This document shows positions 15,613-32,576 of a stretch of 59,331 bases of DNA, piece by piece (position 1 is the first letter of the stretch; the number at the start of each line of letters is the position of its first letter). This DNA is from Spirochaetaceae bacterium. Lineage in GTDB: Bacteria > Spirochaetota > Spirochaetia > SZUA-6 > Bin103. Location: the NCBI GenBank assembly GCA_028821475.1, contig JAPPGB010000131.1:1-59331 (forward strand), in the 5' to 3' direction. The notes under the pieces are model-generated. The model searched no databases, was not told the DNA's origin, and saw nothing but the letters and a program-made list of their open reading frames with translations. The translations under genes and the position numbers were made by a program.

Positions 15613-17355
15613 TCACGCCGGTCGCAGGGTGGCGCCGAACACCGTCACCCCGTCCGGCGTCCCGTCCACCACGCGGATGGCACGCAGCGTGAAGCGGTGC
15701 GTACCGGGCTCGCCGACCTCGACGCGGCCGAGGGCAACCGCGTACTCGGGGAAATACTGCGAGCGCGCAGTGTCGATCGCGGTTGCGGCGCGCAACGGCC
15801 CGCCGGCCGCGCTGCCGGCGGCGGCCACTTCCAGGTGGTGCTCGTCCACCTCCGTGGTGTCGTACCGCGGGGCGGTGATCACCGTCACCTCGTAGCTGCC
15901 GGGTTCGCACACCTTCACCTGCCACGACAGTTCGCTCGCGGTGTCCATCCAGCCGGCGGTCATGCCGTTGGACAGAACCTCCAGGGTAGAATCCGGCTCC
16001 TTCGCCACGCTCGCCAGGTGGGCGTGCAGGTGGATGGCCCCGTCCGGCTGCTGCACGGTGAGGGGGTCGGTTTCCGCGTCGCCGGCCAGGTCGAGCGCAA
16101 TCACGGGAACCGGCTCGCAGCCGCTCAGGTCGGGCAGCCCGATGCGCAGCCGATCGACTTCGCCGGCGCGGGAGCGGTCCTGCTCGAAGTGCACCTCCGC
16201 CTCCGACCCCAGCAGCCGGGCGCCGGTTACCCGCGACCGCAGTCCGTGCACGGCGATCTCTTGCGCCGGCTGCAGCAGGTGCAGGTAGAGGCAGCCCGGT
16301 TTGGCCGTCATGCGCAGCCCGTCGTGCTCGTAGGGAAACGGGCTGCCCTGCGTGCCGTAGATCGCCTCGCCGTTCACCTGCAGCCAGGCGCCGATGGCGC
16401 GCAGCCGCTCGGCGCTCGGTTCCGGTATCACCCCCTCCGCCGTGGGACCGACGTTGAGCAGGTAGTTCACTCCCTTGCTCGCCAGGTCGATCAGCAGCAG
16501 CAGCAGGGTCTGCACCGACTTCCAGTTGTGATCGTGGGTCTTGTACCCCCAGGTGTCGTTCAGCGTGGCCGGGGTCTCGTAATCGGCCTGCACGCGCCCG
16601 GCGGGAATCTGGTTGTCGCCCAGGCTGCCGTAGTCGCCCACGTCGTTGCCGATACGCCCGCTCACCAGGCAGTCCGGTTGCAGCCGGTGCACGAAGTCGC
16701 GCAGATCGATGCTGTGCTCGCGGCTGATGGAGTAGGGCGTGTCGAACCAGATCAGCCCCACCGGCCCGTACCCGGTCAGCAGCTCGCGCAACTGCGGCTT
16801 GACCTTGCGCTCCAGGTAGGCGCCGAAGTCCTTCTCCTCCGGGGCGAAGTCCCAGTCGTTGCGGGAGCCGCCCGGGTCGTGCCAGTCCTGGTCCTGCGAG
16901 TAGTAGAAGCCGAGCCTGATCCCCGCATCCCGGCAGGCATCCGCCAGCTCGGCCAGCGGGTCGCGCCCGTACGGGGTGGCGTCCACGATGTTGTAGGGAC
17001 AGCAGGGCGAGTGGAACAGGGCGAAACCGTCGTGGTGCTTGGCGGTAATCACCAGGTAGCGCATGCCCGCCTGCACGGCAAGGTCTACCCACGCCTTCGC
17101 ATCGAACCTGACCGGGTTGAACTGCTTCGCCAGCGGCTCGTACTCGACACGCGGAATGCGCCTGCGGAACATGATCCACTCGCCGATGCCGTCCACCGGC
17201 TCGCCCTTCCAGACGCCCGCCGGAATGGCGTACAGGCCCCAGTGAATGAACATGCCGAACCGCGCCTCGCGCCACCAGCCCAAGCCCGGATGATCAACCA
17301 CGGGCGCGGCATTGCGGCCGCCCATGCGCGCCCGCCAGGTCGTGAACTCTGCCAT
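15613..17355 (-). CDS. Alpha-L-fucosidase (GH29), larger form
   Basis: A 580-residue glycoside hydrolase. The N-terminal TIM barrel begins WWREARFGMFIHWGLYAIP, followed by YLVITAKHHDGFALFHS and GFYYSQDQDWH. The nucleophile region is VGLIWFDTPYS (Asp). Later come KGVNYLLNVGPTAEG and INGEAIYGT-like text (VNGEAIYGTQGS), all GH29 hallmarks. About 160 C-terminal residues form an extra beta-domain. The enzyme releases alpha-L-fucose, and no signal peptide is visible, so it probably acts on imported fragments. The start at 17355 (MAEFTTWRARMGG) is chosen because the longer frame has no family resemblance upstream. It lies downstream of nothing on its strand and diverges from the amidohydrolase gene with about 55 bases between starts. 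Confidence 0.92.
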   Translation of the reverse strand: MAEFTTWRARMGGRNAAPVVDHPGLGWWREARFGMFIHWGLYAIPAGVWKGEPVDGIGEWIMFRRRIPRVEYEPLAKQFNPVRFDAKAWVDLAVQAGMRYLVITAKHHDGFALFHSPCCPYNIVDATPYGRDPLAELADACRDAGIRLGFYYSQDQDWHDPGGSRNDWDFAPEEKDFGAYLERKVKPQLRELLTGYGPVGLIWFDTPYSISREHSIDLRDFVHRLQPDCLVSGRIGNDVGDYGSLGDNQIPAGRVQADYETPATLNDTWGYKTHDHNWKSVQTLLLLLIDLASKGVNYLLNVGPTAEGVIPEPSAERLRAIGAWLQVNGEAIYGTQGSPFPYEHDGLRMTAKPGCLYLHLLQPAQEIAVHGLRSRVTGARLLGSEAEVHFEQDRSRAGEVDRLRIGLPDLSGCEPVPVIALDLAGDAETDPLTVQQPDGAIHLHAHLASVAKEPDSTLEVLSNGMTAGWMDTASELSWQVKVCEPGSYEVTVITAPRYDTTEVDEHHLEVAAAGSAAGGPLRAATAIDTARSQYFPEYAVALGRVEVGEPGTHRFTLRAIRVVDGTPDGVTVFGATLRPA

Positions 17356-17410
17356 GGCGCGCAGGGTAGCGGAACTCACGCTCAGGTTCCACTGCCGGCG
17401 CGCGTGCGCT

Positions 17411-18529
17411 ATGATGCCGCGCATCATGGCGGATACCCTGGTGCAAGCTTCGCAGACGCCCGCGGCGCCCGCGGCCACCACCGGCTTCATCGACGCGGAC
17501 TGCCACGCCGCCCCCGCGTCGATCGAGGCTCTGTACCCCTACCTGGCGCCGCGCTGGCGCGCGTTCGTGCAGGACACCGGCTACGCGGAGCCGACGGCGA
17601 TTCACTACCCGAAGGTGTACGCCAACGCCGCGCGCCGCGACGCCTACCCGCCGGGGGGCGGCAAGCCGGGCACCGATGAGCGGTTCGCGGCCCGGCAGCT
17701 CCTGGACACCTGGGGCCTTGCCTACGCAATCATCAATCCTCTGTACGCCCACTCGCTGGTGCGCAACCTGCATCTCGGCAGCGAGTTCATGCGGGCGGTG
17801 AACCGCTGGCTGGCGGACGAGTGGCTGGACGCCGACTCGCGCTGGCGCGGATCGATCGTGGTGAACATCGAAGACCCCGATGCCGCGGCGGAGGAGATCC
17901 TCACGGTGGCGCGCGATGGCCGATTCGTGCAGGTGCTGCTGCTGGTGCGTTCGCCGGAACCTTACGGCCGGCAGCGGTTCCGGCCCATCTTCCGTGCCGC
18001 GACCGAGGCGGGGCTGCCGGTAGGCATCCACTTCGGCGGCGGCGGCGGCCCGATCACCGGCGTCGGCTGGCCCTCCTACTACATCGAGGACCACACCGGC
18101 ATGGCGCAGGCGTTTCAATCGCAGGTGATCAGCCTGGTGTGCGAGGGGGTGCTGGAGGAGCTGCCGGAGTGCCGCATCGCCCTGATCGAGGGCGGCTTCG
18201 CCTGGTTGCCGCCGCTGATGTGGCGCCTCGACAAGAACTACCGGGGGTTGCGGCAGGAGGTGCCCTGGCTCACCCGGCTGCCGAGCGAGTACATTCGCGA
18301 GCAGTTTCGCGCCACCACCCAGCCGATGGAGGAGCCGGAGGATCCGCGGCACCTGCTGCAGATCATCGACATGATCGGCAACGACGAATTCCTGATGTTC
18401 GCCACCGACTATCCGCACTGGGACTTTGACGCCCCCGACCAGGCGATCCGGGCGCTCCGCCTCACGGCCCTGCACGGCGCCATCGCAAGCGAGAATGCGC
18501 GCCGGTTCTACGACTTCGAGCGCGCCTGA
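17411..18529 (+). CDS. Amidohydrolase family protein (ACMSD-like)
   Basis: About 372 residues. The N-terminal metal-site region reads FIDADCHAAP (the usual DxHxH is DCH here), a mid-barrel histidine lies in GIHFGGGG, and the C-terminal metal Asp is in FATDYPHWDFD. This set belongs to the amidohydrolase_2 superfamily (ACMSD, gamma-resorcylate decarboxylase and relatives). The start is ambiguous among ATGs at 17411, 17414 and 17426 and has no ribosome binding site. A Rieske protein gene follows 7 bases after its stop, so the two probably act together on an oxidised or aromatic compound (inference). Confidence 0.8.
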   Translation: MMPRIMADTLVQASQTPAAPAATTGFIDADCHAAPASIEALYPYLAPRWRAFVQDTGYAEPTAIHYPKVYANAARRDAYPPGGGKPGTDERFAARQLLDTWGLAYAIINPLYAHSLVRNLHLGSEFMRAVNRWLADEWLDADSRWRGSIVVNIEDPDAAAEEILTVARDGRFVQVLLLVRSPEPYGRQRFRPIFRAATEAGLPVGIHFGGGGGPITGVGWPSYYIEDHTGMAQAFQSQVISLVCEGVLEELPECRIALIEGGFAWLPPLMWRLDKNYRGLRQEVPWLTRLPSEYIREQFRATTQPMEEPEDPRHLLQIIDMIGNDEFLMFATDYPHWDFDAPDQAIRALRLTALHGAIASENARRFYDFERA

Positions 18530-18938: not shown

Positions 18939-19002
18939 GGTAGAGTCCGGCATCCGTGAGTAACGGCACATTGCACATGACACATTGCGAAGGAGCAGAT
19001 CG

Positions 19003-20412
19003 ATGAACAGCTACCAACCCACCTGGTCGTCTCTGGCCACCCACCCCACGCCGCGATGGTTCCTGGATGCGAAGTTCGGCATCTACACGCATTGGGGCCC
19101 CTACTCGGTCGCCGCCTACGGTACCAATGGAACCTGGTACCCCAAGCAGATGTACAACCCCGAACGTCCCGAGTATCGCTACCACAGCGAGACCTTCGGG
19201 CCCCCGGAGCGGGTCGGCTACAAGGAGTTGATCGCCCGCTTCACCGCGGAGAAGTTCGATGCCGACGAGTGGGCGGAACTGTTTGCCGCCTCCGGGGCGC
19301 GCTTTGCCGGTCCGGTGGCCGAGCACCACGACGGCTTCTCGATGTGGGATTCCCGGATCAACAGTTGGAATGCCGCCCGCATGGGGCCGAAGCGGGACGT
19401 GACCGGCGAACTGGCGGCGGCGATCCGGAGCCGCGGAATGAAGTTCGCCGCCACCTTCCACCACGCCCAGAACTGGTACATGTTTCCCACCGACGATCAG
19501 CGCTACGACTGCGCCGACTCCCGCTACCGTGACCTGTACACCGGCCCGCACGCCGCCGACGCCCGTCCCGACGATTGGTTTCTCGACCGCTGGGAGGGCA
19601 AGCTGTACGAGGTGGTGGACGGCTATCGGCCCGACCTGATCTGGTTCGACTTCGGGCTCGGCTTCATTCGCGAACAGCGCCGCAAGCGGTTCCTGGCCTA
19701 CTACTACAACAAGGAACGGGAGTGGGGCAGCGGCGTCGTGGTGACCTTCAAGGAAATTCCCAAGGGTTGGTTCAACCTGCCGCCGATGACCGGGGTGGCG
19801 GACCTGGAACTGGGCAGAATGTGGGAGCTGACCAACCACGTCTGGCTGACCGACACGACCGTCGACGCGCACGGCGTGTGGTCGTACGTCAAGGACGCCG
19901 GCTACAAGTCGGTCGAGCGTCTCGTTCACAACCTCGTGGACCGGGTCAGCAAGAACGGGCACCTGTTGCTGAACGTCGGGCCGCGCCCCGACGGCACCAT
20001 TCCCGACCAGGCCGCCGACTGCCTGCGCGGTATGGGGCGCTGGCTGGAGATCAACGGCGAAGCGATCTACGGCACCACGCCATGGGTGTCGTTCGGCGAA
20101 GGGCCTACGCAGCGGGAGGGGAGCGGCCACTTCACCGAGAAGAGCGAGCCGCGCTTCACAGCCGAGGACATCCGCTTCACGACCAAGGGCGACGCGGTGT
20201 ACGCGATCTGTCTCGGCCGACCCGGCGACGCCATCACCATCGAGGCGCTGCGCCTGTTCTACGACGACGAGGTGGCAGCCGTCACCGCGCTCGGCGTACC
20301 CGGCGAACTGAAGTGGCGCCGCACCGACGCGGGGATGACCATCGAAGTGCCGCGCCGCCTGCGGGGTGAGCACGCCTTCACCTTCAAGGTGCAACTCGCA
20401 CCCGCTGCCTGA
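19003..20412 (+). CDS. Alpha-L-fucosidase (GH29), compact form
   Basis: A 469-residue GH29 enzyme. Landmarks are WFLDAKFGIYTHWGPYSV, then FAGPVAEHHDGFSMWDS, FAATFHHAQNW, and the nucleophile region DLIWFDFGLG. NGHLLLNVGPRPDGTIP and INGEAIYGTTPW close the catalytic domain, and a short beta-domain follows. There is no signal peptide. The ATG at 19003 has AGGAG 7 bases upstream. It shares only the family pattern with the first GH29 gene 1.6 kb away, so it is a paralogue rather than a recent copy. Together they suggest two fucose linkages or substrates. Confidence 0.92.
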   Translation: MNSYQPTWSSLATHPTPRWFLDAKFGIYTHWGPYSVAAYGTNGTWYPKQMYNPERPEYRYHSETFGPPERVGYKELIARFTAEKFDADEWAELFAASGARFAGPVAEHHDGFSMWDSRINSWNAARMGPKRDVTGELAAAIRSRGMKFAATFHHAQNWYMFPTDDQRYDCADSRYRDLYTGPHAADARPDDWFLDRWEGKLYEVVDGYRPDLIWFDFGLGFIREQRRKRFLAYYYNKEREWGSGVVVTFKEIPKGWFNLPPMTGVADLELGRMWELTNHVWLTDTTVDAHGVWSYVKDAGYKSVERLVHNLVDRVSKNGHLLLNVGPRPDGTIPDQAADCLRGMGRWLEINGEAIYGTTPWVSFGEGPTQREGSGHFTEKSEPRFTAEDIRFTTKGDAVYAICLGRPGDAITIEALRLFYDDEVAAVTALGVPGELKWRRTDAGMTIEVPRRLRGEHAFTFKVQLAPAA

Positions 20413-20490: not shown

Positions 20491-20539
20491 AAAAAAACGC
20501 CGGAGCGCACTCACCTGAACCGGTGAGAGCGCTCCGGCG
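20491..20539 (-). terminator. Strong intrinsic terminator of the giant repeat-protein gene
   Basis: An 11-base-pair stem, one A-A mismatch, a further 6-base-pair stem and a TGAACC loop span 20498-20539. On the minus strand the hairpin is followed by seven T (seven A at 20491-20497). It begins 25 bases after the stop of the giant gene at 20564. On the plus strand no T run follows, so it would slow but not clearly terminate the converging fucosidase transcript. Confidence 0.9.
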
Positions 20540-20563: not shown

Positions 20564-23500
20564 CTACGGCGCGGCTACGTACACCTGCGTGAACTCCACC
20601 GGACCGTGGAGGGTACGCAGTGCGATCACGTCGCCGCCACGCACGCCCGTACCGACGTTGACGGTGAGTTGCTCCTCGCCGTTGACCAGGAGCGTCGTCA
20701 TGCCCGTGTCGCTGTAGAGTGCCTCCACGTTGATCATCGAGGCGAGGCCATGCGGGATCCTGCTGCTCGCGAGCCACATCAGCGTGTTGTCGTCCGCCGA
20801 CTCATAGAACTGCAGGTGCAGATCCTCCGAGTCGTAGAACGGATCCTGGGTCACCCACAGCAGATAGGAGTTACCGTAGTTCCAGGTATTCCCCGAATCC
20901 GGCGTAGCGGAGGCCAGAATGTGCAGTCCGAATCCAACCTTGCTTCCGCCGTCGGCGTTGGCCGAGAATCCGAACAACAGCTTGTCCGCCGACTGGTCCG
21001 CCGGAATCGAGAACTTGGCGTGGGTCGAGTCGGCGTCGGACTGAACGACCGATCCACCCTGTGAATCCCACGTTCCTTCGCCCGGAAGCGCCTCCCCGTC
21101 GGCAAACCCGTTCACCACGAAGTTGCCGGTTCGGATCAGGTTGTCGCGGGCAAGTTCGCCGCGGGTTCGCACGTCCCAACCGTCATCGCTCGCCGCCACC
21201 ATCACCTGGCCGTCGGCGCCGCGGGTCAGCGTCAGGGTGTGGGCACGGCCCTCGATCCCTACGTTGGAGATGACCAGCCTGTCATCCTGGAGAGTCGGTT
21301 GCGCCGCATCGAGCTGCAACGAATCGGCGACCAGGTTGGCTCCCTCGAACAGCGCCGTTGCGGTCGCCGCACCGGCGTCGTAGCGAATTCGCGCCGACAC
21401 CGGGGCGCCGGCATACTGGATTCCGGAAATGTAGACCTCGTTCGGGCCGGCGGCCGACAGGGAGGCCGCTTCAAGATCGAGCAGACCGATGTTCAGGCCA
21501 GGCAGGCTCGACCCTTCCATGAGAGCGGCGATTTCCGTCTCCAGCGCCATCGCACGGCTCTCGGCGGTGTCCAGCGCATCGTTTGCCGCGTCCAACTCGC
21601 TGTTCGCCGCGGCCAGCGCGTTGTTCGCCGCGGCCAGCGCCAGGCGCGCTGCTTCGGCATCGGCATTCGCCGCATCGAGTTCCTGCTTCTGCGCAGCGAG
21701 CTCGGTCAGCGCCGCGGACAACTCCGCTCGCGCATCGGCCAAGTCCGCCCGCGCATCGGCCAACAGGGCATCCGGCTTCGTCGGCAGGTTCACGCGGTTC
21801 AGGCCGGATACCTGCAACTGCCCGTCCCCGGTGTACTGCAGCGTACCGGAGTATCCGACACCGCCGACACCGACGTTGGAGACCCTGAACGAGTCCGGGG
21901 ACTCGAAGGCGACCGTGGTCTGTGAAAGGTCGACCGAGTCGGGAATCAACTTGCCGACCGGCCCGAACACGTACTGCACGGTGGCGCTCGTACCGCCCGC
22001 GTACTTGAGCAGCGCGGAGTAGGGCTGACCATCGTACATGATGTTCGAGACGTAGATGGCGTCGGGTCCGGCCAGCGAAACCTGCGCGCCGCTGAAGTCG
22101 GCCAGACCGGCGTCGAGTTGAGAGAAGGCGACCTGCACCGCCGAAGGCTGGTGCATCGCCATCTTCATGGCGTCCATCTCGGCTTCCGCCGCCGCGGCGC
22201 GCGCCATCGCGGCGTCCACCCTGGCATCGGCGTCAGCCATGGCGGCGCTGACCATCTGGTCCGCCTCGGCCATCGCCGCGCTCACCTGAGCTTCGGCGTC
22301 GGCCATGGCGGCACTCACCGCGGCATCGGCGTCGGCCATGGCGGCGCTGACCATCCGGTCCGCGTCGGCCATCGCCGCGTCGATCGCCGCGGCGGCCTTC
22401 TCGGCCTCGGTCGGCGGCAGGGTGACGCGGCGAATGCCGGTCACCTGCAACTGCCCGTTGCCGGTGTATTGCAGCGTGCCGGAGTAGCCGACGCCGCCCA
22501 CGTTGACGTTGGAGACCGCGAAGGAATCGGGCGATACGAAGGCGACCGTGGTCTGCGACAGTCCGACCGCGTCGGGAATCAGTTTGCCGGCCGTCCCGTA
22601 TACGCCGAGCACGGTAGCGGTGGTTCCGCCCTCGTACTTGACCAGCGCGGAGTAGGGCTGCCCGTCGTACATGATCGACGAGATGTAGATCCTGTCCGGG
22701 CCGGCGAGCGACGCCTGCGCGTTGTCGAAGTTGGCCAGCGCGGCGTCCAGGCTGCCGAACGAAACCATCACGTCGGCTGCCTGCCGCATGGCCATCTTCA
22801 TGGCTTCCAGCTCGGCGCGCGCCGCATCGGCTTCCGCCCTGGCGTCGGCCACCCTGGCATCGGCGGCGGCCTCGGCTGCGGCCACTTCTGCCGCGGCGTC
22901 AGCCATGGCCGCGCTCACCATCTCCTCGGCCTCGGCCTTGGCGTCGCTCACCATCTGAGCTGCTTCGGCCTTGGCCGCCTCGATGGCGGCAGCGGCCATC
23001 TCCGCCTCGGTCGGCGGAAGCGTGACGCGGCGGATGCCGGTCACCTGCAGTTGTCCGTTGCCGGTGTACTGCAGCGTGCCCGAGTATCCGTTGCCACCGA
23101 CCGACACGTTCGACACTGCGAAGGTGTCAGGAGACCGGAAGGCGATCTCGGTCTGCGCCAGACTTACCGAATCGGGAATCAGCTTGCCGTCCGGTCCGAA
23201 CACCTGCTTCACGACGGCGGTGGTGCCACCGGCGTATGCGAGCAGGGCCGAGTAGGGCCGTCCGGCGTACATGATGTTGGAAACGTAGATGGCGTCCGGT
23301 CCGGCCAGAGACGCGACCGCGCTGCCGAAGTCCACCAGACTGGCGTCCAGGTCGTCGAACGAGACCATCACCTCGGATGGCTGCTGCATCCCCATCTTCA
23401 TCGCGTCGAGTTCCGCGTTGGCCATGTCCGCGGCATCCTGCGCGGCGTCGGCAGCCGCCTGTGCCGCTTCGGCCTCGGCCTGTGCCGCTTCAAGGGCGCT

Positions 23501-26500
23501 CTGTGCGGCCTGTAGTTCGGACTCCAGAGCCGCAATCTGCTCACCCTTTGCGCTGGCGTCGGCAAGAGCGGCTTCGAGTTCCGCCTGGGCGTCGGCCAGC
23601 ATGTCCATCGTGGTCGGCGGCAGTTGCACTTGGCGAATGCCGGTTACCTGCAACTTGCCGTTGCCCGCGTACTCCAAGGTCCCGGAATAGCCGGCGCCGC
23701 CCACGGAGACGTTGGAGACCTCCCAGGCATTCGGCGCCACGAAGACCAGCTCCGTCTGCGACAGATCCACGGAGTCCGGGATCAGCTTGCCGCTGCTGCC
23801 GAATACGTGGCTGACCTCGGCGGTCGTGCCACCGGTGTAGCGCAGCAACGCGGAGTAGTGTTGGCCGTCATACATGATCGACGACACGTACACGGAATCG
23901 GGCCCCGCAAGGGAGACCCGTGCGCCGGCGAAGCTGGCGCGGCTCGGATCGATCTGGCTGTCCGAGATCATGATCGCGGACGGCTGGAACGCGGCGGCGA
24001 TCATGGCGGCGAGTTCGTCGCCGGCCATGTCCGCTTCCGCCTGCGCTTCATCGGCAGCGGCCTGCGCGGCGGACGCCATGTCGTTGGCGGCCGCCAGATC
24101 CGCTGCCAGGGCAGCAATCTCCTCGCTCTGCGCGCTGTTCTCCGCTTGCGCGGATGCCAACACCGCCTGCATTTCAGCCAACGCGGCCTGTGCCTCTTCC
24201 AGCGCGGTAGGTGGCAGCTCTACCATGCGAATGCCGGTGACCTGCAGCGTGCCGTCGCCGGCGTACTCCAGCGTGCCGGAGTAGCCGACCCCGCCCACGG
24301 AGACGTTGGACACCTCCCAGGCGTTCGGCGCCATGAACACCATCTCGGTCTGCGACAGGTCCACGGAGTCGGGAATCAGTTTCCCCGCCGCGCCGTAGAC
24401 CTGCTTCACCTCGGCGGTGGTGCCGCCGGTGTAGCGCAGCAGCGCCGAGTAGCGCTGGCCGTCGTACATGATCGAAGACACGTACACGGAATCGGGACCT
24501 GCGACCGCCACCCGGGCGTCGGCGAAGCTCGCCTTGCTCGGGTCGATCTGGCCATCCGAGATCATCACCACGGACGGTTGGAAGGCGTCCGCCATCATCG
24601 CTTCAAGCTCGGCCTTGGCCATGTCGGCGTCCGCCATCGACATCGCCGCGCTCGCGTGCGCGTCGGCGAGATCCGCCTCCAGAGAAGCGATCATCTCGCC
24701 CTGCGCGGCGCTGTCCGCTTGCAGGGCATCGTTGGCGGCCTGCGCGGCTGCCAGCGCCGCCTCGACCTCGGCCAGGGCGGCCTGCGCCTCTTCCAGCGCG
24801 GTAGGCGGCAACTCCACCATGCGAATGCCGGTGACCTGCAGCGTGCCGTCGCCGGTGTAGGCGAGCGTGCCGGAGTAGCCGGTCCCGCCTACCGAGACGT
24901 TGGACACCTCCCAGGCGTTGGGGGACACGAACACCAGCTCGGTCTGTGACAGGTCCACGGAGTCGGGAATCAGTTTGCCCGCCGAGCCGTAGATCTGCCG
25001 CACTTCGGCGGTGGTGCCGCCGGTGTAGCGCAGCAGCGCCGAGTAGCGCTGGCCGTCGTACATGATCGAAGACACGTACACGGAATCGGGACCTGCGACC
25101 GCCACCCGGGCGTCGGCGAAGCTCGCCTTGCTCGGGTCGATCTGGCCATCCGAGATCATCACCACGGACGGTTGGAAGGCGTCCGCCATCATCGCTTCAA
25201 GCTCGGCCTTGGCCATGTCGGCGTCCGCCATCGACATCGCCGCGCTCGCCTGCGCGTCATCGGCCATCGCCCTCGCGTCGGCAAGGTCCGCCGCAAGAGC
25301 GTCGTTGGCGGCCTGCGCGGCTGCCAGCGCCGCCTCGACCTCGGCCAGGGCGGCCTGCGCCTCTTCCAGCGCGGTAGGCGGCAACTCCACCATGCGAATG
25401 CCGGTGACCTGCAGCGTGCCGTCGCCGGTGTAGGCGAGCGTGCCGGAGTAGCCGGTCCCGCCTACCGAGACGTTGGACACCTCCCAGGCGTTGGGGGACA
25501 CGAACACCAGCTCGGTCTGTGACAGGTCCACGGAGTCGGGAATCAGTTTGCCCGCCGAGCCGTAGATCTGCCGCACTTCGGCGGTGGTGCCGCCGGTGTA
25601 GCGCAGCAGCGCCGAGTAGCGCTGGCCGTCGTACATGATCGAAGACACGTACACGGAATCGGGACCTGCGACCGCCACCCGGGCGTCGGCGAAGCTCGCC
25701 TTGCTCGGGTCGATCTGGCCATCCGAGATCATCACCACGGACGGTTGGAAGGCGTCCGCCATCATCGCTTCAAGCTCGGCCTTGGCCATGTCGGCGTCCG
25801 CCATCGACATCGCCGCGCTCGCCTGCGCGTCATCGGCCATCGCCCTCGCGTCGGCAAGGTCCGCCGCAAGAGCGTCGTTGGCGGCCTGCGCGGCTGCCAG
25901 CGCCGCCTCGACCTCGGCCAGGGCGGCCTGCGCCTCTTCCAGCGCGGTAGGCGGCAACTCCACCATGCGAATGCCGGTGACCTGCAGCGTGCCGTCGCCG
26001 GTGTAGGCGAGCGTGCCGGAGTAGCCGGTCCCGCCTACCGAGACGTTGGACACCTCCCAGGCGTTGGGGGACACGAACACCAGCTCGGTCTGCGACAGGT
26101 CGACGGAATCGGGAATCAGTTTGCCCGCCGCGCCGTAAATCTGTTGCACCTCGGCGGTCGTGCCGCCGGTGTACTTGAGCAGCGCCGAGTAGCGCTGGCC
26201 GTCGTACAGGATCGAAGACACGTACACGGAATCGGGGCCGGCGACCGCCACGCGCGCGTCGGCGAAGCTCGCCTTGCTCGGGTCGATCTGGCCGTCCGAG
26301 ATCATGATCGCCGACGGTTGATACGCGTCGGCCATCATGGCGTCGATGGTGGCCTTTGCATCGGCAGCCATGGCGTGCCCCTCGTCGGCACTGAACTGAG
26401 CGGCCTGCAGATCTGCCTCCAGGGAGGTTACGTCGCCTTCGAGCGATGCTACGTTCGCCTCGAGAGAGGCTACCTGCTCGCTCATCGCGGCGTTGTCCGC

Positions 26501-28057
26501 CTGCGACGCCGCCAGCGCGGCCTCCACCTGGGCCAGCGCGGCCTGCGCTTCGTCCAGGGCGTCAGGCGGCAGTTCGACCTGCCGGATGCCGGTGACCTGC
26601 AGCTTGCCGTCGCCGGCGTACGTCAGCGTACCGGAGTAGCCGACCCCGCCAACGGACACGTTGGACACCTGCAGGCTGTTGGGCGCCACGAACGTCAGCT
26701 CGGTCTGCGAAAGATCGACGGAGTCGGGAATCAGCTTCCCGGCGCTGCCGTAGACCTGCCTGACTTCGGCGGTGGTGCCGCCGGTGTACTTGAGCAGGGC
26801 CGAGTAGCTCTGCCCGCCGTAACTGATCGAAGAGATGTACACGGAGTCGGGGCCGGCAACGGCGACGCGCGCGTCAGCCAAGCTGCCCAGGCTCGGATCG
26901 AGTTGGTCATCCGAGACCATGATCGCGGACGGCTGGACCATGTCGGCCAGCAAGGAATCGAGCGCGGCACGCGCCGCCGCGGCGTCGGTCTCTGCCACCC
27001 ACTGCGCGACGCTGGCGTCCTCGGCCATGATTTGCGCTTCCGATCTGGCCAACTGGGCGGCATTCCGCTCGGCGCGCGCGGCTTCCGCGTCGGCCATGGC
27101 AGCCTCGGCTTCGGCGCGGGCATCGCCGGCGGCAACGTCCGCCTGCAGCACCAGCGCCTCGGCGGCGGCCAGTTCGGCGCGCAAGGCAGTGATCTGTTCG
27201 TCCGCGGTGGGCGGAAGCACGACGCTGCGCAGGCCGGTGACCTGCAGCTTGTTGCCGCCAACGTGCGTCAACTCGCCGGAGTACCCCGCGGAGCCGACGG
27301 CGACGTTGGCCACCATCAGCTTGTCAGGACCCCGGAAAACCAGCCTGGTTCGGCTCAGGTCGACGGAATCGGGAATCATCTTGCCGCTGGCTCCGAAGAT
27401 GGCCGCCACCGTGGCGGTGGTCCCGCCGGAGTACTCAAGCAATGCCGAATAGGTCTGCCCGTCGTACATGATGGACGATACGTAGATCGAGTCCGGACCG
27501 GCCAGCGAGGCGCGCGCGGCGCTGATGTCGAGCAGGCTGGGGTCGAACCGATCCGCCGACACCATCACCTCGGCGGGATGGGGAGCCATCGCCATCATCA
27601 GCTTGTCGGAGGCCGCATCGGCTTCCGAACGCGCCATTTCGGCGTCCTTCATGGCGCCCTCGGCTTCCGAGCGTGCCATCTCGGCATCCATCATGGCGCC
27701 TTCCGCTTCCGCGCGCGCCATTTCCGCCTCTTTCATCGCCGCTGCCGCCGCCGCCTCGGCGTTGGCCTGCGCCGCTGCCGCCGCCTCGGCGGCAGCCATC
27801 GACTCCTTGGCCTGGGCCATGGCCTGCTCGGCCTCGGCCTGCGCCGCGGCCAGCGCCGGATCGGAGTGATCGGCCGCCTGCAGCGACGCGCACGCTGTAG
27901 CCGCGACCGCACACGCCGATAACAGTAACAGGCGCAGATGCTTGAGCTTGAGGCGCGGGCGGGTCGACTTCGGAGGTGAGGGATTGTCGTCCATCTCGTC
28001 AACTGAATCGAATGAATCCGTAGTGAGGGAAACGGTACCGAGGCTTATCTTGCGCAT
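20564..28057 (-). CDS. Giant repeat protein: beta-modules alternating with Ala-rich coiled coils, putative exported lipoprotein
   Basis: 2497 residues with no family I recognise. A hydrophobic segment (about 38-56, LRLLLLSACAVAATAC) gives a possible lipobox (LSAC at Cys49, or TAC at Cys56), after a 37-residue acidic and basic lead. Residues 65-158 are an Ala/Glu/Met coiled coil. Then come ten copies of a module of about 108 residues (AGPDSVYVSSIMYDGQ, GKLIPDSVDLSQT, VSNVSVGG, GYSGTL, LQVTGIR), each followed by an Ala-rich heptad-like linker of 80-105 residues. An eleventh module near 21500-21180 is degenerate. Module starts on the DNA are near 27577, 26937, 26321, 25747, 25174, 24580, 23986, 23386, 22783, 22150 and 21513. 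The last 190 residues are a distinct jelly-roll-like domain. GGAGGAGGAG precedes the ATG. It is probably a long surface or periplasmic fibre (inference). Confidence 0.85.
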   Translation of the reverse strand: MRKISLGTVSLTTDSFDSVDEMDDNPSPPKSTRPRLKLKHLRLLLLSACAVAATACASLQAADHSDPALAAAQAEAEQAMAQAKESMAAAEAAAAAQANAEAAAAAAMKEAEMARAEAEGAMMDAEMARSEAEGAMKDAEMARSEADAASDKLMMAMAPHPAEVMVSADRFDPSLLDISAARASLAGPDSIYVSSIMYDGQTYSALLEYSGGTTATVAAIFGASGKMIPDSVDLSRTRLVFRGPDKLMVANVAVGSAGYSGELTHVGGNKLQVTGLRSVVLPPTADEQITALRAELAAAEALVLQADVAAGDARAEAEAAMADAEAARAERNAAQLARSEAQIMAEDASVAQWVAETDAAAARAALDSLLADMVQPSAIMVSDDQLDPSLGSLADARVAVAGPDSVYISSISYGGQSYSALLKYTGGTTAEVRQVYGSAGKLIPDSVDLSQTELTFVAPNSLQVSNVSVGGVGYSGTLTYAGDGKLQVTGIRQVELPPDALDEAQAALAQVEAALAASQADNAAMSEQVASLEANVASLEGDVTSLEADLQAAQFSADEGHAMAADAKATIDAMMADAYQPSAIMISDGQIDPSKASFADARVAVAGPDSVYVSSILYDGQRYSALLKYTGGTTAEVQQIYGAAGKLIPDSVDLSQTELVFVSPNAWEVSNVSVGGTGYSGTLAYTGDGTLQVTGIRMVELPPTALEEAQAALAEVEAALAAAQAANDALAADLADARAMADDAQASAAMSMADADMAKAELEAMMADAFQPSVVMISDGQIDPSKASFADARVAVAGPDSVYVSSIMYDGQRYSALLRYTGGTTAEVRQIYGSAGKLIPDSVDLSQTELVFVSPNAWEVSNVSVGGTGYSGTLAYTGDGTLQVTGIRMVELPPTALEEAQAALAEVEAALAAAQAANDALAADLADARAMADDAQASAAMSMADADMAKAELEAMMADAFQPSVVMISDGQIDPSKASFADARVAVAGPDSVYVSSIMYDGQRYSALLRYTGGTTAEVRQIYGSAGKLIPDSVDLSQTELVFVSPNAWEVSNVSVGGTGYSGTLAYTGDGTLQVTGIRMVELPPTALEEAQAALAEVEAALAAAQAANDALQADSAAQGEMIASLEADLADAHASAAMSMADADMAKAELEAMMADAFQPSVVMISDGQIDPSKASFADARVAVAGPDSVYVSSIMYDGQRYSALLRYTGGTTAEVKQVYGAAGKLIPDSVDLSQTEMVFMAPNAWEVSNVSVGGVGYSGTLEYAGDGTLQVTGIRMVELPPTALEEAQAALAEMQAVLASAQAENSAQSEEIAALAADLAAANDMASAAQAAADEAQAEADMAGDELAAMIAAAFQPSAIMISDSQIDPSRASFAGARVSLAGPDSVYVSSIMYDGQHYSALLRYTGGTTAEVSHVFGSSGKLIPDSVDLSQTELVFVAPNAWEVSNVSVGGAGYSGTLEYAGNGKLQVTGIRQVQLPPTTMDMLADAQAELEAALADASAKGEQIAALESELQAAQSALEAAQAEAEAAQAAADAAQDAADMANAELDAMKMGMQQPSEVMVSFDDLDASLVDFGSAVASLAGPDAIYVSNIMYAGRPYSALLAYAGGTTAVVKQVFGPDGKLIPDSVSLAQTEIAFRSPDTFAVSNVSVGGNGYSGTLQYTGNGQLQVTGIRRVTLPPTEAEMAAAAIEAAKAEAAQMVSDAKAEAEEMVSAAMADAAAEVAAAEAAADARVADARAEADAARAELEAMKMAMRQAADVMVSFGSLDAALANFDNAQASLAGPDRIYISSIMYDGQPYSALVKYEGGTTATVLGVYGTAGKLIPDAVGLSQTTVAFVSPDSFAVSNVNVGGVGYSGTLQYTGNGQLQVTGIRRVTLPPTEAEKAAAAIDAAMADADRMVSAAMADADAAVSAAMADAEAQVSAAMAEADQMVSAAMADADARVDAAMARAAAAEAEMDAMKMAMHQPSAVQVAFSQLDAGLADFSGAQVSLAGPDAIYVSNIMYDGQPYSALLKYAGGTSATVQYVFGPVGKLIPDSVDLSQTTVAFESPDSFRVSNVGVGGVGYSGTLQYTGDGQLQVSGLNRVNLPTKPDALLADARADLADARAELSAALTELAAQKQELDAANADAEAARLALAAANNALAAANSELDAANDALDTAESRAMALETEIAALMEGSSLPGLNIGLLDLEAASLSAAGPNEVYISGIQYAGAPVSARIRYDAGAATATALFEGANLVADSLQLDAAQPTLQDDRLVISNVGIEGRAHTLTLTRGADGQVMVAASDDGWDVRTRGELARDNLIRTGNFVVNGFADGEALPGEGTWDSQGGSVVQSDADSTHAKFSIPADQSADKLLFGFSANADGGSKVGFGLHILASATPDSGNTWNYGNSYLLWVTQDPFYDSEDLHLQFYESADDNTLMWLASSRIPHGLASMINVEALYSDTGMTTLLVNGEEQLTVNVGTGVRGGDVIALRTLHGPVEFTQVYVAAP
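24727..26093. repeat. Near-identical tandem repeat, 573-base period, inside the giant gene
   Basis: The stretch from about 24727 to 25520 reads the same as 25300 to 26093 when shifted by 573 bases, with no difference seen by eye. The unit is 191 codons, one beta-module plus one linker. Outside it, neighbouring modules differ at many positions, and the next unit toward the gene 3' end is 594 bases long because of 7 extra linker codons. This is the mark of a recent unit duplication, and such arrays easily gain or lose copies or collapse in assembly. Confidence 0.9.
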
Positions 28058-28224
28058 GTGCTCCTCCTCCGTAGCTTGGCGCCGCGCACCGCCGTAACCC
28101 GCGCCCACGCCGTGCCGGAGAATATTTTGTTGTCTAGCTTGAACGATAGCGGCGGGCGTGTCCACTACTTTCGAACGGACACGGTGCCGGCACTTTCGCG
28201 CAAGCGTGCGATCTATCCTGCGCT

Positions 28225-28253
28225 ATAATCCCAAACGCGGGGGCGTCTGTCAA
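28225..28253 (-). promoter_or_regulatory. Sigma70-type promoter for the giant repeat-protein gene
   Basis: On the minus strand, TTGACA (28248-28253) is a perfect -35 box, followed after 17 bases by GATTAT (28225-28230), a four-of-six -10 box. Transcription would start near 28218, leaving an untranslated leader of about 160 bases before the ATG at 28057. No other promoter-like pair of this quality is seen in the 270-base gap. Confidence 0.6.
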
Positions 28254-28331: not shown

Positions 28332-28667
28332 TCACACCGCGTCGAAGGGTGCCCCTGTCATCGCAACGCTGGTCAGCGCCTCCGCGTCATCGGGCTGCCG
28401 GTGGCCGCCGGCGACCCGGTTGACCCGTACCGCGCCGCATCTCTCGCAGCGATGCACCAACTGCCAGCCCTTGCCTCCGGCCCACTTCAATCCCATCGGC
28501 GCCATCAGTCCGCCGCAGTCGCTGGCGCGGTCTCCGGGCAGCACGTCGAGGTGCAGCGAGTACAGGCACCGCGGACAGTGGTTGCGATAGCTGCCGTCCG
28601 CTACCGGCTCCACCTGGCTGCCGCAGCGGAGACAGCGAAAGCCGGTGTTGTGCCGTTTCTGTCCCAC
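28332..28667 (-). CDS. RNHCP domain zinc-ribbon protein
   Basis: A 111-residue protein from a GTG that overlaps the end of the PPIase gene by a few bases. It has NTGFRCLRCG (CxxC), RNHCPRCLYS (CxxC, the name-giving RNHCP), GDRASDCGG, and a third CxxC in VHRCERCG. These give two or three zinc-binding knuckles. RNHCP proteins are small, widespread and of unknown function, possibly RNA-linked. No other start codon lies closer to the conserved region, so the GTG is accepted. Confidence 0.8.
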   Translation of the reverse strand: MGQKRHNTGFRCLRCGSQVEPVADGSYRNHCPRCLYSLHLDVLPGDRASDCGGLMAPMGLKWAGGKGWQLVHRCERCGAVRVNRVAGGHRQPDDAEALTSVAMTGAPFDAV

Positions 28668-28675
28668 CCCGACCG

Positions 28676-29740
28676 CTACAGCGACAAGAGCTCCAACTCG
28701 AATACCAGGAACGAGTCGGGAGGTATCACTCCGGGCACGCCGCGACGTCCGTAGCCGAGTTCCGGCGGAATGATCACGGTGCGCTGTTCGCCCTGCACCA
28801 TGTCCAGGAGCGCCTCGTTGACGCCCGCGATGAGCTGTCCGATGGTGAACTGCGCCGGGCTGCCCCGGTCGTGCGAGCTGTCGAACTTGGTACCGTCGAG
28901 CAGCTTGCCCGTATAGTGAACCGTGACCGCCTGGCCCTGCTTCGGCTTCTCGGTTCCGGAGCCGGCGGCGGTGACCTGGTACCACAGACCGGACTCCGTG
29001 GTCACCGCGTCTGGCCAGGTGGCGGCGATGATCCGTTCGGCCTCGGCGCGCTCCTCGGCCGCGGCCCGTTGCGACCGCCCCCCTACTTGCTCGAGCAGAG
29101 CGTCGAACCGTTCCTGGTCGACGCCGTAAGCCTCCGCGTCGCTGCCGATGCGGAGGATCTTCACCTCTTCGATGGTGTCGCCCTGCTTCACCGCATTCAC
29201 GACATCCTGTCCTTGAACGACCCGCCCGAATACCGTGTGGCGCCCGTCGAGCCACGGCGTCGCGACGTGGGTAATGAAGAACTGGCTGCCGTTGGTGTTG
29301 GGGCCGGCGTTGGCCATCGACAGCACGCCGGGGCCGTCGTGGGTCAGCTCGGGAACGATCTCGTCGGGGAACGAGTACCCCGGTCCGCCGCTGCCGGTGC
29401 CGTGCGGGTCGCCGCCCTGAATCATGAACTCGGGAATGACCCGGTGGAACGCGAGGCCGTCGTAGTACGGTCCGGGGTTCCGGTTCTGGAACGCTATGGT
29501 GCCCTCCGCGAGGCCGACGAAGTTGGCCACGGTCAGCGGCGCGCGTTCATGTTCGAGCAGCAGGTAGATGGTGCCGTGGGTCGTCTTGAGGGCTGCGTAC
29601 AGGCCGTCGTCGAGCTTCGGTTGCTGTTCGCCCGATGCGCACGACGTCAGGGTCACGGCAAGCGCCGGCAGCAGCACCGGCAACGTGGCGAGCCGACGGC
29701 CCTGCGGCAGGAGTCGGTGGAGCGGGTGTCGATTGATCAT
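28676..29740 (-). CDS. Dual-domain peptidyl-prolyl isomerase lipoprotein (cyclophilin + FKBP)
   Basis: A 354-residue lipoprotein. The signal ends with lipobox LTSC, giving a lipidated Cys at about residue 34. The cyclophilin domain (about 50-200) has [33 protein letters not shown] and [12 protein letters not shown], all active-site landmarks. The FKBP domain (about 250-354) has [28 protein letters not shown] and a final FELELLSL. It would assist folding of exported proteins in the periplasm. Cyclophilin-then-FKBP fusions are rare; to my recollection spirochaetes are among the bacteria that have them. It lies in a run with the RNHCP gene, which overlaps its end. Confidence 0.93.
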
Positions 29741-29784
29741 GTCGGGGCAGTGTATTGCAGCTTCCGAGGCCCCGGCAACAGACT

Positions 29785-30702
29785 CTAACGGCTGCGAGCG
29801 GCAAGAATTACCCACGTAAGGGTAGAAATCCCGCGGTCCGGGCCGGTGCGCAGCCCGCCGCGCTCCGGAAGCGCTGCCCCGAGCCACTCGGCAGTTCCGG
29901 TGACGTCGTCCACGCTGAAGAACGCCAAGTCCGCTCCGTCACCGTCGAACCCGGGCGGCGGCATCGCGTGCAGCGCCAGCGGTTCCCCGAGCCTTGCCCC
30001 GAATGGATGCAGGGCCCACATCGCCAGGGGCCGGTAGCGCGCGTCCGGCGCCGCCAACTCGTACTCCGGCCATGCCTCGGGCGGAATCCGGGCGCCGCCG
30101 ATCACCGCGGACGCCGCACCGCCGGTGCCGGCGCCGGTTGCCCGTTGCAGTGCGCCCAGGTCGACCGGCCCGGAGGGAACCAGGCTCAGCCCGGCGAACT
30201 CGACCGGCTCCGTGCCCTCCCAGCCGATCGCCGTGGCGTCGTGCAACTGCACCGGCGGCAGGTCCCGGCCGGCCGCGGTCAACTCCACCGGCAGCACTAC
30301 GGAGGTGAGGGTGCGCCCCGCCACCGATCCGCCGCGTACGTCCAGGACGTAGCGCTCCACCGGCAGCGACGGATAATGGAACCGGCCCGATTCGTCAGTG
30401 GTGGTGGGCCAGCAGGCGCTCGCGCACATCGCCACCGACACGTCGGGCAGCGGAGCGCCGCCGGCGTCGGTCACCACTCCGCCGAACGGCGCGTGGCCGG
30501 CTGCGGCGGTCCCGGACGCCGCGCCGTCACGGAATGCTGCATCGAGTCCGGCCGCCGGCTCGCTCCGACCTCTGCCGTGAGCAGTGTCGGGGGACACGAG
30601 GAGGCCGGTGGCCAGCATGCAGATCACGGCGGCAACTGCGCCGCCCCCGCGCCGACGGCGCGGTCCGCACGTGCCGCAAACGGAAACGTGGCGGCCTGTC
30701 AC
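29785..30702 (-). CDS. Secreted protein with a carboxypeptidase-regulatory-like beta domain
   Basis: A 305-residue protein. A signal anchor or peptide is at about residues 20-42 ([20 protein letters not shown]). Residues about 72-135 form an Ig-like module: [19 protein letters not shown], then [13 protein letters not shown] and YVLDV, the usual pattern of the carboxypeptidase regulatory-like fold. The rest (about 145-305) is not recognised but contains proline-rich and DxDGAD-like acidic loops. The ATG overlaps the stop of the DUF1223 gene (ATGA). It may act with that protein at the cell surface; function is unknown. Confidence 0.7.
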
Positions 30703-31508: not shown

Positions 31509-32576
31509 TCAGCGATCGGAATCGCCGTGCGCCGAGTGCGAACCCAGCGTAATCTCGCCGCCCTGTTCGAGTTCGCGGATCGTCGCGGCCACCCGCTGCT
31601 GGGCAGCTTCGACGGCGCCGAGACGAATGTTGCCGAGCGCCCGCATGGCGTCCTGCAGCAATGCCGCGCCGCGCTTCGACATGGCGCCGGTGACGCGCTC
31701 CGCCATGTCCTGGTCTACCGCCTTCAGCGCCGCGGCAAGATCGTTGCGGCTCACTGCGCGCAGCACGCGCCGCAGCGAGCCGTCGTCGAGCAGCCACAGA
31801 TCCTCGAACGCGAACATCTGCTGCTTCAGTTCGTCGCTGAGCGCCGGATCCTCGTCCCCTATGGCATCGATGATGGTGCGCTCGGTGGCGCGGTCCAGGT
31901 GATGCAGGATCTTCAGCACGCGTCGGTTACCGCCCGACACGACGTACGCGTTGTCGGTACGCTTGCGCGAGACTCTCGATACTCTGGCGAGACGGCGCTG
32001 CAATACTCGCTCCACCTCGACGACCACCTCCGGGATGGTCTGCTCCAGGGTGGCGACGCGGCGCGCCACGTCCGCCTGCACCGTGTAGGGCAGGCTGGCG
32101 AGCAGCGCTGCCGCGTCATCCGGCTTCAGGTAGGCAAGGACCAGCGCGATGGTCTGCGGGTGTTCGCCGCGTATGGACGCCAGCACCTGTCCGGAGTCGG
32201 AACGGCGTACGAATCCGAACGGCCGGGCGTGCAGCGCCCGCGTCACTCGCCCGATCATGGCTACCGCCCGTTCCGCGCCGAGCGATTTTTCGAGCACGTC
32301 GCGCGCGTAATCGAGGCCGCCGCCACGGTTCGCGCCGCGGGTCAGCATGAGTTTCTGGAATTCGGCGAGCGCGGCGTCCTGCTGAGCGGGGGCTACCTGC
32401 CCCAACTGCGCAATCGCCAGGGAGAGCTGTTCTATTTCGTGTTCGTCGAGATGCTCGAAGATCCGTGCGGCAAGATCGGTGCCGAGCAGCACCAGAATCA
32501 CCGCTGCCTTCTGCTGCCCGGTAAGGTGACCCCCGGGCGCGGCGTCCGGAGGTTCGCCGGCTCCCGCCGCCCTCAT
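31509..32576 (-). CDS. fliG: Flagellar motor switch protein FliG
   Basis: A 355-residue protein with the three FliG domains. FliG-N has LTGQQKAAVILVLLGTD and ARIFEHLDEHEIEQLSLAIA. FliG-M has IRGEHPQTIALVLAYL. FliG-C has LKQQMFAFEDLWLLDDGSLRRVLR, where the charged torque helix normally reads MFVFEDIxxLDDRSIQRVLR. The C-terminal LEQGGEI matches as well. It sits on the cytoplasmic face of the rotor and sets rotation direction. No other flagellar gene is nearby, which is common for extra FliG copies in spirochaetes. Which paralogue this is cannot be told. Confidence 0.93.
   Translation of the reverse strand: MRAAGAGEPPDAAPGGHLTGQQKAAVILVLLGTDLAARIFEHLDEHEIEQLSLAIAQLGQVAPAQQDAALAEFQKLMLTRGANRGGGLDYARDVLEKSLGAERAVAMIGRVTRALHARPFGFVRRSDSGQVLASIRGEHPQTIALVLAYLKPDDAAALLASLPYTVQADVARRVATLEQTIPEVVVEVERVLQRRLARVSRVSRKRTDNAYVVSGGNRRVLKILHHLDRATERTIIDAIGDEDPALSDELKQQMFAFEDLWLLDDGSLRRVLRAVSRNDLAAALKAVDQDMAERVTGAMSKRGAALLQDAMRALGNIRLGAVEAAQQRVAATIRELEQGGEITLGSHSAHGDSDR

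Follow-up and report, generated by a model that had tools for sequence, protein, structure and literature searches.

The window analysed here, a stretch of 59,331 nucleotides from a Spirochaetaceae bacterium, carries on its minus strand a gene of 2,497 codons plus stop (20564..28057), as revealed by ORF analysis and the coding GC pattern. The start ATG was placed at 28057 and the stop at 20566-20564; the start is backed by the orthologue in the related genome bin103, the same Met beginning both proteins, and is preceded at a distance of three bases by the ribosome-binding site GGAGGAGGAG (28061..28070, minus strand), which was assigned from the sequence and the comparison with the orthologue. 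GC contents of 0.68/0.49/0.85 at the three codon positions show the pattern of the Pfam-matched neighbouring genes. The plus-strand reading of 20564-28057 was rejected as a gene, its translation having stops. The initial annotation of this DNA had described a giant protein of 2497 residues in which beta-modules alternate with Ala-rich coils, and this was confirmed for the minus strand.

An own promoter-like sequence and a strong terminator had likewise been proposed, and both were recovered. The promoter-like element TTGACA-17-GATTAT, with a TG preceding the second hexamer (28225..28253, minus strand), is identical in the bin103 orthologue, though the flanking sequence has diverged. The intrinsic terminator (20491..20539, minus strand) consists of a 17-bp stem followed by U7, with z = -7.1 against shuffled sequences, and recurs in similar form in bin103. 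Among the genes adjoining the giant gene, none was recognised as serving secretion or assembly. Close upstream lies a gene in which cyclophilin and FKBP-type peptidyl-prolyl isomerase domains are fused in a single protein (28676-29887, minus strand); after it, and still upstream of the giant gene, comes a small gene for an RNHCP zinc-ribbon protein (28332-28673). On the other side, an alpha-L-fucosidase gene (18985-20409, plus strand) is convergent with the giant gene and is adjoined by an amidohydrolase gene (17312-18526).

From its N terminus, the protein comprises an export signal, an Ala-rich coil, ten 121-residue modules alternating with helical linkers, a divergent eleventh module and a C-terminal domain. 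On the minus strand, the modules were mapped to 27212..27574 (module 1, residues 162-282), 26567..26929 (module 2, 377-497), 25952..26314 (module 3, 582-702), 25379..25741 (module 4, 773-893), 24806..25168 (module 5, 964-1084), 24212..24574 (module 6, 1162-1282), 23618..23980 (module 7, 1360-1480), 23015..23377 (module 8, 1561-1681), 22415..22777 (module 9, 1761-1881) and 21782..22144 (module 10, 1972-2092). Their pairwise identity is 58-100%, rising to 79-100% among modules 2-7, and modules 4 and 5 have identical DNA. The 108-residue repeat reported initially is thus real as a repeat unit, cut here as 121 residues. Since each full copy scores about 140-157 bits against the module profile and orthologous copies of window and bin103 are under purifying selection (dN/dS 0.06-0.34), the repeat is not due to chance. 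An exact 791-bp direct repeat with a 573-bp period inside the gene (24729-26092, minus strand) marks a very recent duplication. Because such a repeat could make a short-read assembly miscount, the module count of ten is to be taken as the number of the assembly.

The eleventh module (residues 2183-2292; 21182..21511, minus strand) belongs to a distinct distal subtype, which is present in all paralogues. Ten module copies stood as first described; the description of the eleventh as decayed did not. Because every paralogue and orthologue has this subtype immediately before its C-terminal domain, and because the module is constrained (dN/dS 0.22), we read it, from sequence comparison, as a conserved distal subtype and no decaying copy.

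Each module was found to be an internal duplication of a beta unit of ~43 residues. A profile comparison of the first and second module halves aligned 43 columns with a probability of 97.7% (E 2e-12), and 30 column-shuffled profiles used as a control reached at most 1.5%. In the AlphaFold2 model of modules with linkers, the modules are all-beta, mainly strands, at modest confidence (pLDDT about 55-65). A match to a named domain or the lack of a folded beta unit had been offered initially as findings that would speak against a new module; the model contains the beta unit, and no named domain was matched in Pfam, NCBIfam or PDB sequences. Odorant-binding proteins, the only PDB sequence matches of the module profile, scored E 0.15 and were treated as chance. 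A search of the module-linker model with Foldseek and VIA gave no PDB match at E 0.001, and structure matches to flagellin and V-ATPase (Z about 8) are long-helix matches and no evidence of kinship. As these searches used the module joined to its linkers, the module may still have a known fold. Matches of the full protein to Stimulus_sens_1 and DUF6438 in Pfam were rejected as sums of weak matches in the repeats, of which no stretch passes alone, and SMC-related, Rad50 and PgrA matches in NCBIfam as coiled-coil look-alikes far under the cut-offs.

The first coil, an Ala-rich segment of ~105 residues (57-161; 27575..27889, minus strand), shows identity peaks at lags 7, 14 and 21. The linkers after modules 1-10 are 94, 84, 70, 70, 77, 77, 80, 79, 90 and 86 residues long. 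Hence, the 80-105 residues given initially for the linkers did not hold (70-94 for the linkers, ~105 for the N-terminal coil), but their heptad-like character did in most of them: linkers 8 and 9, which flank module 9, have a period of 11 (hendecad), and the remaining linkers have identity peaks at lag 7 or lag 14. Summed over the linkers, the 7/2 (heptad) periodicity was matched by 34 of 2000 shuffles; by the same measure, single linkers were mostly not significant individually. In the AlphaFold2 model, the all-beta modules are connected by single uninterrupted helices, 74 and 86 residues long. A comparison of position-matched linkers with the orthologue revealed length differences of 0, 7, 7, 7, 7, 11 and 11 residues, the two differences of 11 falling exactly in the hendecad linkers. 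Taken together, the unbroken predicted helices, the 7/11 periodicity and the 7/11 length steps support a reading of the linkers as register-bound coiled coils, where the 7- and 11-residue steps may in part stem from DNA slippage of coil-length repeats.

Coiled-coil segments together with many near-identical modules could favour self-association, which raises the alternative of a matrix or cell-cell scaffold, in which chains would associate sideways via their coils and modules to form sheets or bundles that join symbiont cells. Considering that the giant gene stands alone between its own promoter-like site and terminator, with no recognised secretion or assembly neighbour, we hold this to be very improbable.

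The N-terminal hydrophobic segment with a Cys, as noted initially, was substantiated as a lipoprotein-type export signal (residues 1-56; 27890..28057, minus strand) with the candidate lipobox cysteines Cys49 (LSAC) and Cys56 (ATAC), which were assigned from the sequence and the lipoboxes of the paralogues. These are the only two Cys in the 2,497 residues, both lying within the signal and both conserved, and the paralogues carry the textbook lipoboxes LAGC, LGGC and LASC. Its export signal terminates in a lipobox Cys, and the giant protein is probably lipid-anchored via its N-terminal Cys. We know of no membrane sorting rule for lipoproteins of this spirochaete group; in Borrelia, export of lipoproteins to the surface was reportedly found by Schulze and Zuckert in 2006 (cited in PMC2987989) to be the default.

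At the opposite end, the C-terminal domain (about residues 2305-2497; 20567..21145, minus strand) was modelled from four sequences with a pLDDT of about 60-80 over most of the domain. The comparison of the model with CBM66 of Bacillus subtilis in VIA-align gave Z 17.2 and an rmsd of 2.9 over 158 residues, many L-type lectin and calreticulin domains, ERGIC-53 among them, followed at Z 15-16, a Foldseek comparison reached a probability of 1.00, and galectin-8 was matched as well. The domain is therefore predicted to be a jelly-roll sandwich of concanavalin/galectin/CBM66-like topology, in line with the different, jelly-roll-like C-terminal domain anticipated initially (Z 17 to CBM66). No Pfam family was reached at gathering score and no PDB sequence was matched. 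The domain has 16 positions that never vary among nine diverse spirochaete relatives, the giant protein included, and its dN/dS between window and orthologue is 0.15. A shared fold alone does not demonstrate function, and the lectin role of this tip is a predicted one.

A C-terminal-alignment scan of genome contigs returned, as named relatives, only contigs of one MAG, Spirochaetaceae bacterium bin103. This Spirochaetes genome comes from the sponge Aplysina aerophoba and has a GC content of 67.36% (PMC5649159). The window genome belongs to the same genus and, judging from this congener, its organism is probably sponge-associated as well. Synteny between the window and bin103 spans 15.6-33 kb and includes the orthologue, a protein of 1,874 residues with seven full modules versus 10 in the window; this difference in repeat number is one between two species and is to be read with the assembly caution that follows from the 791-bp repeat. 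By DNA identity, modules 1, 2, 3, 7, 8, 9 and 10 of the window pair with bin103 modules 1-7, leaving modules 4-6 as extra copies. Because these three all resemble bin103 module 3, it would follow that three module units were gained in the window lineage or lost in bin103.

Paralogues were found in both genomes. A short one of 589-595 residues without full modules is present in each, and a middle one of 1,069 residues with three full modules occurs in bin103, its counterpart in the window genome apparently lying in two parts at the ends of contigs C84 and C131. The shorter paralogues carry a related C-terminal tip, which is the part retained in all paralogues. The initial proposal that size is set by module number is borne out by this series, with ten modules here, seven in the orthologue, and three and none in the bin103 paralogues.

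Searching for the module in other genomes, as had been suggested, yielded relatives not only in bin103 but also in the class at large, with the module present in 29 of 395 genomes drawn from Spirochaetia. The initial statement that no family was known was upheld in that no named domain matched, but the protein is not without relatives, since one-module proteins occur across Spirochaetia. Nearly all module proteins whose frame was followed to the end consist of a signal, one module, a coil and the C-terminal domain. These small proteins (e.g., L050, L067 and L082) have homologues of the giant protein's module and C-terminal domain, placed in the same order; they differ in having one module (two in L071), a plain signal peptide in those inspected and a length of about 380-760 residues. 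Among the genomes searched, only the genus of the window and bin103 has more than two modules. At the sensitivity of the search, the module was absent from the other two family genomes searched, one of them with a completeness of only 81%.

The C-terminal domain has a wider distribution in the phylum, being found in 41 of 393 genomes drawn, in small exported proteins, at the ends of coils and at the ends of transglutaminase-like/TPR-like proteins with long Pro/Ala-rich spacers. Three of the last type (L087, L088 and L089) were seen to have about 1,100-1,480 residues, a transglutaminase-like/TPR-like region recognised by eye, very long Pro/Ala-rich spacers and the same lectin-like domain at the C-terminus. 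In L054 (4380-5810, plus strand), the module-coil and lectin-like parts lie in two consecutive same-frame stretches with one stop codon between, which would fit a split gene, a pseudogene or a sequencing error. No module relatives were found in viral contigs and no C-terminal domain relatives on plasmids, and a by-eye reading of the listed gene neighbourhoods of the small relatives noticed nothing recurrent.

An export signal, alternating modules and linkers, a constant C-terminal domain and a module number differing between sister species are what the sequences present, and they can be combined into a stalk lipoprotein of variable length that is lipid-anchored and presents a lectin-like tip, a reading to which we give an even chance. 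The lipidated N-terminal Cys would hold the chain in the outer membrane, and neighbouring chains would bundle through their Ala-rich heptad and hendecad helices into a stiff rod with the beta modules as beads. Projecting from the cell, the rod would present its lectin-like domain to a glycan, probably of sponge tissue or neighbouring cells. Gain or loss of a module-plus-coil unit of ~190-200 residues would lengthen or shorten the reach and leave the tip unchanged, so that the genus may change how far from the cell the tip is held. With a rise of 0.1485 nm for each helical residue and 3-4 nm assumed for each module, the giant protein would measure about 156-168 nm when fully extended, the orthologue 113-122 nm and the two shorter paralogues about 56-61 nm and 37-39 nm, which would place the related tips of these two roughly 60 and 40 nm out. 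The exported lipoprotein fibre of the initial annotation is supported by the lipoprotein signal and by the rod of beta units and helical spacers.

The wide occurrence of the tip domain bears on its ligand. Because Spirochaetia carry it widely, also in proteins with a plain signal peptide and in periplasmic-looking fusions, the first ligand of the tip was probably no host glycan; this distribution favours an envelope ligand, and the surface reading is therefore held with only moderate confidence. It also lends weight to an envelope tether, in which the N-terminal lipid would sit in one membrane and the tip would bind the cell's own peptidoglycan or surface polysaccharide, the chain forming a long strut along or across the periplasm: that in many Spirochaetia the domain forms the end of coils or linkers, also in signal-peptide and transglutaminase-like/TPR-like proteins, suggests a common envelope ligand, and the 589-residue paralogue, at about 38 nm, could span an envelope. 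We nevertheless regard the tether as unlikely, as an extended length of about 155-170 nm exceeds the usual width of the periplasm several-fold, a length difference of ~45 nm between sister species is hardly tolerable for a spanning strut, and no peptidoglycan-binding family was matched in Pfam or NCBIfam. The initial idea of a spacer that keeps the outer membrane or cell wall at a fixed distance is hard to reconcile with ~150 nm of extended length and with seven versus 10 modules in the sister species.

A periplasm widened by flagella is unlikely, since neither flagellin (PF00669) nor the rod/hook family (PF06429) was detected in the window MAG or bin103, and this apparent absence also argues against the tether. 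A related flagellated genome, G013, served as a positive and gave five PF06429 matches and two FliG. Window genome and bin103 each have one FliG homologue (window copy at 31509-32576, minus strand), an orphan FliG in apparently flagellum-less spirochaetes.

The giant protein is highly acidic, with a net charge of about -207. Along with its great length, the variation of this length between species and its confinement, among the searched genomes, to a sponge-associated genus, this would suit a surface brush or shield, a dense acidic coat keeping off sponge phagocytes, phages and neighbouring cells, to which the tip would be minor. The tip is constrained (dN/dS 0.15) and kept in all paralogues, unlike what a passive coat would call for, and we consider such a shield improbable. 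Given the lectin-like tip, reaching a ligand would be likelier than passive spacing.

The stalk was compared with known surface fibres. Periscope Proteins (SasG, Rib, Sgo0707 and others) share folded domains in near-identical tandem copies, which are believed to build a rod, a varying repeat number and a distal functional domain (PMC9704523). The giant protein likewise has repeats of more than 50 residues with high identity (79-100% for modules 2-7) and a repeat number that varies among close relatives, namely 10 versus 7 in two species; it differs in its coiled coils between modules, its predicted N-terminal lipid anchor and its undescribed repeat family. The Periscope class is defined as monomeric and leaves out stalks of the coiled-coil type seen in trimeric autotransporters (PMC9704523), and the coiled-coil-like behaviour of the linkers would argue against such a monomeric chain. 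Trimeric autotransporter adhesins (YadA, BadA and AtaA, the last forming fibres of about 260 nm; PMC13082670) resemble it in their long stalk, where coiled coils alternate with beta units, and in carrying a binding head at its far end. They differ in polarity, the giant protein having its anchor N-terminal and its tip C-terminal, and in having less uniform repeats. Its C-terminal region gave no Pfam match to a YadA-type membrane anchor, a lectin-like jelly roll being predicted there instead. We suggest by analogy that the giant protein works like both systems and assign it to neither class.

With fibrillar adhesins generally, the protein shares the arrangement of anchor, stalk repeats and distal domain, and it differs in that stalk module and tip are both outside Pfam; the word 'lipoprotein' is absent from the text of the fibrillar-adhesin survey (PMC8286594). 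The tip has the predicted jelly-roll fold in common with CBM66, galectins and L-type lectins (Z 15-17), with no detectable sequence relation. It is possible, if somewhat doubtful, that a new class of diderm surface fibre is represented here: a lipid-anchored, coiled-coil-bundled rod beaded with an undescribed, internally duplicated beta module, whose length would be tuned by whole-unit duplication and register-preserving 7/11-residue steps, the three paralogues holding one kind of tip at three heights on flagellum-less, sponge-symbiotic spirochaetes.

The analysis brought out two Spirochaetia domain families absent from Pfam and NCBIfam, and the intermediates outline a route by which a small secreted protein with a single module could have grown into the giant beaded fibre of this sponge-associated genus. 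Should the tip bind a glycan of sponge or microbial origin, it would give a testable molecular way into how these uncultured spirochaete symbionts, apparently without flagella, grip or distance their host. The giant protein appears to join to a lipoprotein-type anchor the traits of two adhesin designs that have been kept apart, the tandem-domain rods of Periscope Proteins and the coiled-coil stalks of trimeric autotransporters.
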